From: Streptacidiphilus pinicola
Lineage (GTDB): Bacteria; Actinomycetota; Actinomycetes; Streptomycetales; Streptomycetaceae
Length of the DNA stretch: 64,000 nt
Assembly (NCBI RefSeq): GCF_003258295.1
Contig: NZ_QKYN01000118.1
Span: 1 to 64,000, forward strand
Direction: 5' to 3'
The notes beneath the pieces were generated by a model. The model was not told the DNA's origin. It saw only the letters and a program-made list of their open reading frames with translations, and did not search any database. The position numbers were made by a program, and so were the translations under genes. Below, one piece after another: positions 21,743-24,718 of the stretch (position 1 is the stretch's first letter; the number at the start of each line of letters is the position of its first letter).

Positions 21743-22966
21743 TCAGGCCGTGAACCGCACCGGCAGCGAACTCATGCCGTGCAGGATGCTCGAGTAGATC
21801 CACTTCTCCTCGCCGATCTGCTCCAGATCGCCGACCAGCCGGCGCAGGCCGTCGAGCACCGCGTAGACCTCCATCCGGCCCAGGTGGTGCCCCAGGCAGT
21901 GGTGGGCACCGTGGGCGAAGGTGAAGTGCTTGTTGGGCGTGCGGGAGAGGTCGAACTCGTCGGGGCGGTCGAAGACGGTCTCGTCCCGGTTGGCCGAGGA
22001 GATCCACACGCTCACCACGTCACCGGCCTTGATCTCCTGGCCGTTGACGACGACGTCGCCGGTCGCGGTCCTGCCGCCGTGCAGCGACGGGACCGTCCAG
22101 CGCAGCACCTCCTCGGTGGCGGTCTTCAGGTCGACGTCGCCGTTCTTGAGTGCGCGCCACTGGTCGGGGTTCTCGATCAGCGCCAGAACGGCCCCGGTGA
22201 TCGCGTGCCGACCGGTCTCGTCCCCACCGATCATGAGGCCGTAGCAGTTGGCCATCAGCTCGACCTGGTTGAGCGGGATGCCGTCGATCCGGCAGTTCGC
22301 GAGCAGGCTGACCATGTCGTCGCCCTCGCTGCCGCGCCGCTCCTTGGCCAACTTGCTGAAGTACAGCAGGATCTCGTTCTTCGCCACCCAGTTGTCCTCC
22401 GGCGGCGCGTCGGCGTAGTCGGAGCTCCAGGCGTGGGCGGTCTGGCTGAGCAGGAACCTGCGGTCCGCCTCGGGGACCTCCAGCAGGTCGCAGATGGCGC
22501 CCAGCGGGACGCTCGCGGAGACGTCCGCGGCGGCGTCGCAGTCGCCCTTGTCCAGGGCCTCAAGGAGCAGCCGGTCCACCGTCTGCTGCAGCGAGTGCGC
22601 GATGTGGTCCAGGGTCCGCGCCGAGAAACCCTTCGACAGGACGTTGCGGATCTGGTGGTGCCGCACGCCGTCGGTGACGGCCAGCATCGTTCCGGATGCC
22701 GAGTCGCCGCCGGTGAGCAGGGTGGCCAGCGCGTTACCGTTCTCGGTGGTGAAGTGCGCCTTGTCCTTGTAGACGGCGTTGGCGTCCTCGTGACGGCTGA
22801 TCACCCAGAAGCCCGGACGGTTCTCCCGCGGCGTGTGCCAGTAGACCGGCTTCTCGGCCCGCAGGTGGCGCCAGACCTCGTCGAGCTCGCGCTCGGCGTG
22901 CAGGTGCGGCGACGCGAGGTCGATGGCGTCGATCTCGTCAGGGCTGACGACGGGTCGCTTGGTCAT
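21743..22966 (-). CDS. Cytochrome P450
   Basis: 407 residues, soluble bacterial class I size. I chose ATG 22966 (GGAG six bases upstream). I-helix motif GLMIGGDETGRH, K-helix EEVLR, and heme loop FTFAHGAHHCLGHHLGRME with the heme-ligating Cys near residue 357. No ferredoxin or reductase gene is nearby, so redox partners come from elsewhere. Placed directly behind an A-T didomain with one-base spacing, it most likely hydroxylates the beta-carbon of the carrier-bound amino acid, as NovI, OxyD and NikQ do. That role is inferred from context. Confidence 0.93.
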   Translation of the reverse strand: MTKRPVVSPDEIDAIDLASPHLHAERELDEVWRHLRAEKPVYWHTPRENRPGFWVISRHEDANAVYKDKAHFTTENGNALATLLTGGDSASGTMLAVTDGVRHHQIRNVLSKGFSARTLDHIAHSLQQTVDRLLLEALDKGDCDAAADVSASVPLGAICDLLEVPEADRRFLLSQTAHAWSSDYADAPPEDNWVAKNEILLYFSKLAKERRGSEGDDMVSLLANCRIDGIPLNQVELMANCYGLMIGGDETGRHAITGAVLALIENPDQWRALKNGDVDLKTATEEVLRWTVPSLHGGRTATGDVVVNGQEIKAGDVVSVWISSANRDETVFDRPDEFDLSRTPNKHFTFAHGAHHCLGHHLGRMEVYAVLDGLRRLVGDLEQIGEEKWIYSSILHGMSSLPVRFTA

Positions 22967-22969
22967 CAC

Positions 22970-24718
22970 TCACTCCTTGCCCGACGCACACGCGGCGAGC
23001 GCCTCGATGGTCGGGTTCTCGACCACGTCACGGGGGGAAATCTCCAGCCCGGCCTCCTGGGCCTGCTGGATGAAGGCGATCGCGAGGATGCTCGTGCCGC
23101 CGAGTTCGAAGAAGTTGCTCTCGGCGCTGATCCGCTCGGCCGGGAAGAGCTCCCTGAAGATCTCGCAGAGCGCCTTCTCCGCGGGGGTGCTCGGCTCCCG
23201 GCCATTCGGCTGCTCGGCCACGGAAGGGGCGGGGAGGCCCTTCCGGTCGACCTTGCCGTTGGGGGTGAGCGGAAGGGCGTCCAGGGTCGCGTAGACCGAC
23301 GGGACCATGAAGTCGGGCAGGTAGCGCATCGTGTGCTCGCGCAGTTCACCGGGCGACGGCCGGCCGCCGTCCGCGGGCACCACGTAGGCCACCAGCTGCG
23401 GCGTCTCGCCGTGGTCGGCGCGCACCGCGGCGACCGCGTGGGCCACGCCCGGATGGCGGCCGAGTGCCGCCTCCACCTCGCCCAGCTCGATCCGGAAGCC
23501 GCGCAGCTTGACCTGGTCGTCGCCGCGACCGTGGAACAGGATGCTGCCGTCGGCCCGCCACGAGGCCAGGTCGCCGGTCCGGAACATCCGGCCGCCCGCG
23601 CCCGCGAACGGGTCGGCGACGAAACGCTCCGCGGTGAGAGCGGGCTGCCCCAGGTAGCCGCGGGCCAGCCCGTCCCCGCCGATGTACAGGTCACCGACCT
23701 CGCCGACGGGCACCGGACGGAGCTCGCCGTCCAGGATGTGCACCGAGACGCCGGGGATCGGACGGCCGATGGACACGTCCTCGCCCGGCTGGAGCGGGTC
23801 GGTCATCGTGGCGCACACCGTCGCCTCGGTGGGGCCGTAGGCGTTGATCAGCCGCAACCCCGCACCCCAACGGTCCACCAGCGCCGGCGGACAGGCCTCG
23901 CCCGCGACGACCAACGTGCGCAGCTCGGGGAAGTCCTCCGGCGCGACCGTGGCCACCGCCGCGGGAGGGAGCACCGCATGGGTGATCCGGTGCTCCCGCA
24001 GCGTGGTCCGGAGGTTGTCGCCGGCCAGGGTTCCCGCGGACGGCACCACCAGGGTGGCCCCGGCGGTGAAGGCGGCCAGCAGCTCCGTCAGGAAGGCGTC
24101 GAAGCTTGGGGAGGCGAACTGCAGCACCCGGCTGTCCGCGTCGACCCGCATGGCATCGACCTTGGCCGCGGCCAGTCCCGCCAGTCCGGCGTGGGTGACC
24201 GCCACGCCCTTGGGCCGTCCGGTCGAGCCGGAGGTGTAGATGACGTAGGCGAGGTCGGACGCGGACCGGGGGCCGGTGAGCTCCTCGTCCGACAGGCTCG
24301 TACCGGGCAACGCACCGAGGACGGCGATCTGCTTGGCGGAGTCCAGGGCCACGTGCGGGACCGTCAGGTCCGCCGGCAGCTTCGCGGCGGCGACCCGCGT
24401 CGTGCACAACAGCACAGGCGCCGCGTCCTTCAGGAGGTAGGAGAGGCGCTCGGCCGGGTAGTCGACGTCGACCGGCAGGAAGGCGGCACCGGTCTTGGCG
24501 ACGGCCAGCAGGCTGACCACCATGCGGCTGGACCGGGGCAGCGCCAGCGCGACCAGACGCTCCGGGCCGGCACCCTGAGCGACCAGCATGCGCGCGAGCC
24601 GGTTCGCCTGCTCGTCCACCTCCGCATACGAGAGGGACTCCCCCTCGGCCTGGATGGCGATGTTCCCGGAGGATCTCCGCACCGCCCGGTCCCACAATTC
24701 ACATATCATTTCCGGCAC
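22970..24718 (-). CDS. Freestanding NRPS adenylation-carrier (A-T) didomain
   Basis: 582 residues starting at a GTG after GAGGGG. The adenylation domain (1-500) shows A3 YTSGSTGRPKG (161-171), A5 NAYGPTEATVC (292-302), A7 RTGDLASW, A8 RGDDQVKLRGFRIELGEVE in parts and A10 NGKVDRK with Lys489. The carrier domain (510-582) has FELGGTS with Ser543 for phosphopantetheine. Specificity residues read by hand against GrsA-PheA: D207 A208 T211 V249 V270 A272 A293 V301 C302 K489 (DATVVAAVCK), close to Phe/Tyr codes, so an aromatic amino acid is likely. No condensation, epimerase or thioesterase domain. First gene of the ten-gene operon. Confidence 0.93.
   Translation of the reverse strand: MPEMICELWDRAVRRSSGNIAIQAEGESLSYAEVDEQANRLARMLVAQGAGPERLVALALPRSSRMVVSLLAVAKTGAAFLPVDVDYPAERLSYLLKDAAPVLLCTTRVAAAKLPADLTVPHVALDSAKQIAVLGALPGTSLSDEELTGPRSASDLAYVIYTSGSTGRPKGVAVTHAGLAGLAAAKVDAMRVDADSRVLQFASPSFDAFLTELLAAFTAGATLVVPSAGTLAGDNLRTTLREHRITHAVLPPAAVATVAPEDFPELRTLVVAGEACPPALVDRWGAGLRLINAYGPTEATVCATMTDPLQPGEDVSIGRPIPGVSVHILDGELRPVPVGEVGDLYIGGDGLARGYLGQPALTAERFVADPFAGAGGRMFRTGDLASWRADGSILFHGRGDDQVKLRGFRIELGEVEAALGRHPGVAHAVAAVRADHGETPQLVAYVVPADGGRPSPGELREHTMRYLPDFMVPSVYATLDALPLTPNGKVDRKGLPAPSVAEQPNGREPSTPAEKALCEIFRELFPAERISAESNFFELGGTSILAIAFIQQAQEAGLEISPRDVVENPTIEALAACASGKE

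Follow-up and report, generated by a model that had tools for sequence, protein, structure and literature searches.

A predicted tyrosine-loading NovH/NovI-like gene pair in a compact aminocoumarin-type cluster of Streptacidiphilus pinicola

A stretch of 64,000 nucleotides from Streptacidiphilus pinicola (contig NZ_QKYN01000118.1, positions 1 to 64,000; the window below) carries an adenylation-thiolation (A-T) didomain gene and a cytochrome P450 gene side by side. Judged by homology, this gene pair very likely makes up the tyrosine-loading start of a compact cluster for an aminocoumarin, in which a beta-keto route would lead to an amide. The cluster is an ordinary member of the novobiocin family and represents no new type of enzyme system. 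An earlier reading of the bare sequence (the original prediction) had offered an open guess at the substrate. This can now be replaced by a firm assignment to the predicted tyrosine-loading NovH/NovI pair of an aminocoumarin cluster and likely of a gyrase-inhibitor pathway; gyrase inhibition is the class activity of aminocoumarins. The cluster spans about 12.6 kb, has no sugar genes and would thus be a small system in which to rebuild the formation of the aminocoumarin ring. Gene content, gene order, homology, code identity and catalytic residues were observed directly.

The A-T didomain and the P450

The NovH-like A-T gene (22970 to 24718, reverse strand) encodes AMP-binding, AMP-binding_C and PP-binding domains, with L-Tyr as the predicted substrate. 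Its pocket was aligned with GrsA-PheA (1AMU), which the pocket region of the A domain matched best in the PDB. PheA positions 235, 236, 239, 278, 299, 301, 322, 330 and 331 corresponded to D, A, T, V, V, A, A, V and C, respectively, and Lys517 of PheA aligned with an NGK motif, giving K as the tenth letter. The PheA code is DAWTIAAICK, and the chain numbering of 1AMU agrees with the position numbers used. The alignment reproduced the code originally reported for the didomain, DATVVAAVCK, with six positions identical to PheA and two conservative changes, both from Ile to Val; Trp239 is replaced by Thr and, beyond what had been described, Thr278 by Val.

The code was compared across 76 stretches, left from 83 once seven stretches belonging to five duplicate loci had been set aside. 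These stretches were gathered around related P450s, related pyridoxal phosphate (PLP) enzyme genes and one ligase match and form a non-random sample. We dismiss chance resemblance as the source of the match, because DATVVAAVCK occurred in nine distinct loci besides S. pinicola and in none of the remaining 67 stretches, a few of which represent ligases and not nonribosomal peptide synthetase (NRPS) A domains. The code was exact in all six aminocoumarin-type A domains compared, including NovH of Streptomyces niveus and its counterpart in Streptomyces rishiriensis, the producers of novobiocin and coumermycin, respectively. The S. pinicola A-T protein shares 64–72% identity with those of the six loci, and is a stand-alone didomain whose code equals that of its counterparts from S. 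niveus and S. rishiriensis. Since novobiocin and coumermycin arise from tyrosine-based pathways, the shared ten residues bear out the predicted aromatic substrate, which is most likely L-Tyr. Pairs of an A domain and peptidyl carrier protein (A-PCP) with an MbtH protein load tyrosine for novobiocin, clorobiocin and simocyclinone, according to one study (PMC3578932). DATVVAAVCK does not appear in the main text of PMC12283262, which deals with signature codes.

The P450 gene (21743 to 22969, reverse strand; GTG start, with an ATG next) adjoins the A-T gene, as the original prediction held, and its product was assigned as NovI-like from a profile match, a PDB match and a tree. Relatives were sought with an alignment of the S. 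pinicola P450 and four relatives across named bacterial genomes, and 35 loci were retained through two conserved peptide patterns, a count that misses members without both patterns. The closest relatives came from Streptomyces sp. CoH27 (86% identity), S. rishiriensis NBRC 13407 (81%), S. niveus NRRL 2466 (80%), two Amycolatopsis genomes (78%) and a Catenulispora metagenome-assembled genome (MAG, 77%). The tree was built from 58 rows by a quick method with no bootstrap, after the five duplicate loci and all matches below about 340 residues had been set aside; its group labels were chosen by the analyst from identity and gene content. Here, the S. pinicola P450 and the six aminocoumarin-type P450s, NovI among them, formed one clade of seven rows with a Shimodaira-Hasegawa-like approximate likelihood ratio test (SH-aLRT) value of 100. 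This clade sits inside a set of 20 rows (SH-aLRT 100), separate from the P450s beside larger NRPSs. The class is that of P450s expected to beta-hydroxylate aminoacyl carriers, which agrees with the activity first proposed for this protein. According to PMC12284476, NovI beta-hydroxylates and NovJ/K oxidise the residue.

The nearest solved P450 by sequence was 4l0e, P450sky, which serves the NRPS modules of a cyclic peptide. Although this is the closest structure, the S. pinicola P450 groups with the novobiocin and coumermycin P450s in a tree that lacks P450sky. Skyllamycin-like NRPS tailoring, hinted at by this best PDB match, was rejected in view of the gene content and the tree. A second related P450 of S. 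pinicola (G000:C22:28192-29370; L047:6196-7371) is 51% identical to the cluster P450 and lies near an NRPS-type A domain with the code DALWLGGTFK. A search of a plasmid collection returned five P450 matches of 38–48% identity and one ligase match, the latter in a region without annotation.

Downstream core genes

Four reverse-strand genes follow the P450 gene. The first encodes an MbtH-like protein (21503 to 21697, PF03621), whose stop codon overlaps the ATG start of the next gene (ATGA). That gene (20721 to 21506) encodes a FabG-like/NovJ-like short-chain dehydrogenase/reductase (SDR) with an intact catalytic Ser-Tyr-Lys set and 64–75% identity to five counterparts. The second SDR (19957 to 20724) is NovK-like, with a weak SDR match and 38–46% identity to five counterparts, and has none of the three catalytic residues (Ser, Tyr, Lys). 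All three are likewise replaced in the second SDRs of S. niveus, S. rishiriensis, CoH27 and the two Amycolatopsis genomes, in a comparison whose count leaves out the NovJ row of Amycolatopsis NBRC 101858. Thus, as in S. niveus, one active-type SDR is paired with one inactive-type SDR. The fourth gene (18359 to 19960) encodes a NovL-like amide bond synthetase of the ANL family, 57–72% identical to six counterparts (57% in S. niveus, 62% in S. rishiriensis). Its best PDB matches were 6sq8 and 6h1b, structures of the amide bond synthetase McbA. NovL, CouL, CloL and SimL are classed as amide bond synthetases in PMC10804368. The genes further downstream touch or overlap by their coordinates in an operon-like manner. 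The order A-T, P450, SDR, SDR, ligase is identical in S. pinicola, S. niveus and S. rishiriensis.

These genes change what the beta-hydroxylation would mean. The class proposed for the P450 stands, but the original prediction, which missed the downstream MbtH, SDR pair and amide bond synthetase, had described only an intermediate step. Because the MbtH, the NovJ/NovK-like pair and the NovL-like synthetase follow, beta-hydroxytyrosine is read here as an intermediate toward a 3-amino-4-hydroxycoumarin amide, not as the end product.

Sharing of genes was assessed by tblastn of 26 proteins against seven regions. The novH, I, J, K and L homologues were present in all six unbroken regions (41–64 kb each) and were the only genes common to them, while the Catenulispora MAG, where the region is fragmented (20 kb on two contigs), gave no match for J and only a partial one for K. 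The comparison was repeated with stop-to-stop frames of at least 100 amino acids, 307 from the S. niveus stretches and 164 from 9–42 kb of the window; MbtH is shorter than this limit. Frames matching all five other unbroken regions lay only on the H-I-J-K-L genes, sense or antisense. A flavoprotein upstream of novH in S. niveus, which we take by position to be NovC, had no tblastn match in the other six regions. Therefore, provided that one mechanism serves all, these five shared genes narrow the common candidates for ring closing.

Other arrangements of these genes were seen among the relatives. In five loci from Micromonospora, Amycolatopsis and Nocardia (L074, L076, L078, L079 and L081), the amide bond synthetase and the A-T protein are in the same frame, 589–694 bases apart, with the codes DAAIIAAVCK or DAALMAAVCK; in L079 (4197-9998), both lie inside a single open frame of 1933 amino acids, a ligase-A-T fusion. 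In L032 (4853-7921), L033 (12525-15863) and L041 (3785-6868), a long A-T protein adjoins an amide bond synthetase and a P450. The long A-T proteins of L032 and L041, the two scanned, have a condensation domain, and L032 also carries an NDP-hexose 2,3-dehydratase gene.

Accessory genes, proposed pathway and alternatives

Beyond the amide bond synthetase gene lie a threonine-synthase-like PLP enzyme (PALP; 17122 to 18378, reverse strand) and a flavin adenine dinucleotide (FAD)-dependent oxidase of the DAO family (15971 to 17122, reverse strand), which are 80% and 73% identical to the CoH27 proteins and 71% and 63% identical to those of the Catenulispora MAG, respectively. The top NCBIfam match of the oxidase was glycine oxidase, under the cut-off of that model. 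A TetR-family regulator (13673 to 14440, forward strand; CoH27 71%, Catenulispora MAG 66%) is divergent to a major facilitator superfamily (MFS) transporter gene (12152 to 13615, reverse strand; CoH27 73%, Catenulispora MAG 64%, S. rishiriensis cluster 53%). Of the regions compared, only those of S. pinicola, CoH27 and Catenulispora carry the PLP enzyme, FAD oxidase and TetR regulator, and the MFS transporter was shared with S. rishiriensis as well. The metallophosphoesterase (15117 to 15974, reverse strand; 65% to the CoH27 cluster) may be a mere neighbour, because it also occurs near other clusters (L032, L033), in L032 beside a 4'-phosphopantetheinyl transferase. The 4'-phosphopantetheinyl transferase of S. 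pinicola (14350 to 15120, reverse strand), identified by profile scan, had no tblastn match in the six other regions; it could be the enzyme that primes the T domain, or else belong to the housekeeping genes nearby. Apart from this gene, CoH27 (L071) agrees with S. pinicola in both gene set and gene order.

Upstream of the A-T gene, a gap of about 390 bp and a ROK-family gene precede apparent housekeeping genes up to 43 kb. A UPF0047 protein (6784 to 7209, reverse strand) shares 76% identity with a protein of the novobiocin region (L080:4508-4939) and is unmatched in the other five regions, which is probably a coincidence of a widespread family. An origin of the PLP enzyme and FAD oxidase in coumermycin-type pyrrole genes was rejected: five genes from this stretch of S. 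rishiriensis were unmatched in the window, and the two S. pinicola proteins were unmatched in the S. rishiriensis stretches. Elsewhere in the S. rishiriensis genome, only distant threonine-synthase-like genes were found. In another genome of the family (L059:8178-10552), the gene of a PLP enzyme (58%) adjoins that of a DAO-family oxidase (28%), with no match to aminocoumarin genes within the 20 kb fetched; this suggests that the two form a portable unit.

All reactions below, like Tyr as the substrate, the acid partner and the class of the product, are deduced from homology. The A domain, with MbtH, would adenylate L-tyrosine and load it onto its own T domain, and the P450 would hydroxylate the tethered tyrosine at its beta-carbon. 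The SDR pair, an active NovJ-like protein with its inactive NovK-like partner, would oxidise this to the beta-keto thioester, and ring hydroxylation and lactone closure would yield 3-amino-4,7-dihydroxycoumarin. The amide bond synthetase would join the aminocoumarin amine to a carboxylic acid, the probable product of the PLP enzyme and FAD oxidase. The flow would thus run from Tyr through Tyr-S-T, beta-OH-Tyr-S-T and beta-keto-Tyr-S-T to the aminocoumarin and its amide, a product that the MFS protein probably exports and the TetR protein probably senses. Because the PLP enzyme, FAD oxidase, TetR and MFS set recurs in CoH27 and the Catenulispora MAG and no sugar gene was found, the data suggest a product of the cacibiocin type, without a sugar, that the MFS protein would export; we infer from the genus that the Catenulispora MAG cluster is that of cacibiocin, the characterised C. 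acidiphila cluster lying outside the loci compared.

Ring hydroxylation and closure of aminocoumarins were called unelucidated in 2025 (PMC12284476). Since only the A-T protein, P450, SDR pair and amide bond synthetase are common to the six regions, these steps could fall to one of the five shared proteins, for example as a second oxidation by the P450, or to an unlinked host enzyme, without a dedicated cluster hydroxylase. That the cluster makes an undescribed sugarless aminocoumarin in this manner is a tentative proposal, which we hold as possible but somewhat doubtful.

Several observations weigh against assignment to an aminocoumarin cluster. No obvious aromatic hydroxylase was seen among the cluster genes. 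The glycosyltransferase, carbamoyltransferase, methyltransferases and prenyltransferase of novobiocin were unmatched in the 64-kb window by tblastn, with no match to the NovM glycosyltransferase or a TylF-type methyltransferase at E 1e-8. Only two GyrB-type genes are present in the draft genome, both on other contigs and none in the cluster. Three sister-clade loci whose A-T proteins are longer (L072, L073 and L075) have the code as well, so that the code alone is no proof of an aminocoumarin.

The unmatched novobiocin glycosyltransferase and the lack of a third GyrB-type gene in the draft genome would also fit an incomplete aminocoumarin pathway, one with sugar and acyl genes elsewhere or one that is non-functional. 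This would be compatible with tyrosine loading, but we consider it unlikely: the core genes have open frames that lie tightly together or overlap, the same PLP enzyme, FAD oxidase, TetR and MFS set is present in two other genomes, and the TetR/MFS pair would fit a product-released repressor such as CabR of cacibiocin, as described in PMC5133688. Loading of L-phenylalanine, leading to a coumarubrin-like aminocoumarin without the 7-hydroxyl, is less likely still. The S. pinicola code resembles that of PheA, and an aminocoumarin cluster with a Phe-predicted NovH homologue and a product without the 7-OH exists, according to PMC12284476. However, the ten positions equal those of novobiocin NovH, from a Tyr pathway, and related loci bear other codes (DAAIIAAVCK, DAALMAAVCK, DAFVLAAVCK), which leaves room for other substrates there; this comparison was made without the coumarubrin A-domain code.

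Loading of Trp or a ring-substituted amino acid, with the beta-hydroxy amino acid as product or peptide building block, can be virtually set aside: the echinomycin A-PCP/MbtH/P450 set acts in this way on Trp (PMC3578932) and more distant P450 relatives adjoin several A-T units, but the S. pinicola P450 falls outside the groups of those relatives, no condensation domain was present in the window proteins scanned (0.5–43 kb), the only other AMP-binding genes on the contig are the ligase and an acyl-CoA-synthetase-like gene (3604 to 4839), and the NovJ/NovK-like pair and NovL-like ligase directly follow. The original prediction had drawn Trp or a substituted ring, beside Tyr, from the Thr at position 239; this is rejected because the entire code is identical to that of novobiocin NovH.

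Comparison with known systems

The S. niveus stretches L080 and L104 are neighbours on one contig and carry the genes expected of novobiocin: an ABC transporter, prephenate dehydrogenase, glycosyltransferase, carbamoyltransferase, two methyltransferases, an aromatic prenyltransferase and, in L104, gyrase B. The S. pinicola cluster has the same order and A code as novobiocin, with identities of 67% (A-T), 80% (P450), 68% (SDR), 38% (second SDR) and 57% (ligase). It differs in having its own MbtH gene between the P450 and SDR genes, in lacking the glycosyltransferase, carbamoyltransferase, methyltransferases and prenyltransferase in the window, and in having no GyrB gene on the contig.

The S. 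rishiriensis coumermycin stretches (L065/L100) carry a TylF methyltransferase, gyrase B (L100) and a glycosyltransferase. They share the five core genes, the A code and the MFS transporter (53%) with S. pinicola. Instead of the PLP enzyme and FAD oxidase, they contain a GHMP kinase, a thiamine pyrophosphate (TPP) enzyme, a flavin mononucleotide (FMN) dehydrogenase and a DUF6002 protein. No paper on coumermycin couR1 was found in a literature search mostly without subscription journals; a broader query there yielded a single unrelated paper, and of 11 papers that mention cacibiocin none names it in the title or abstract. In the echinomycin-type system (Qui18/Qui15), beta-hydroxy-Trp is released and no NovJ/K or amide bond synthetase is adjacent, unlike in S. 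pinicola.

Among clusters of the presumed cacibiocin type, those of CoH27 and, on two contigs, of the Catenulispora MAG share core genes and the PLP enzyme, FAD oxidase, TetR and MFS genes with S. pinicola. The MAG differs by a LuxR regulator and a tryptophan-halogenase-family gene (L066:6481-7950) beside its A-T gene; such a halogenase gene was not seen among the window genes scanned. The cacibiocin cluster is controlled by the repressor CabR, which the product releases (PMC5133688). A 2020 survey lists an aminocoumarin cluster 64% similar to that of cacibiocin in S. pinicola KCTC 49008 (PMC7601586). Because the S. pinicola genome contains a single ligase match at E <= 1e-60, the cluster described here is very probably the listed one.

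Coumarubrin of Lentzea tibetensis likewise involves NovH, NovI, MbtH and NovJ/K homologues and an amide bond synthetase. Its predicted precursor is Phe, whereas Tyr is predicted in S. pinicola, and its aminocoumarin is attached to a rubromycin polyketide. This gene set reportedly led to an aminocoumarin (PMC12284476).

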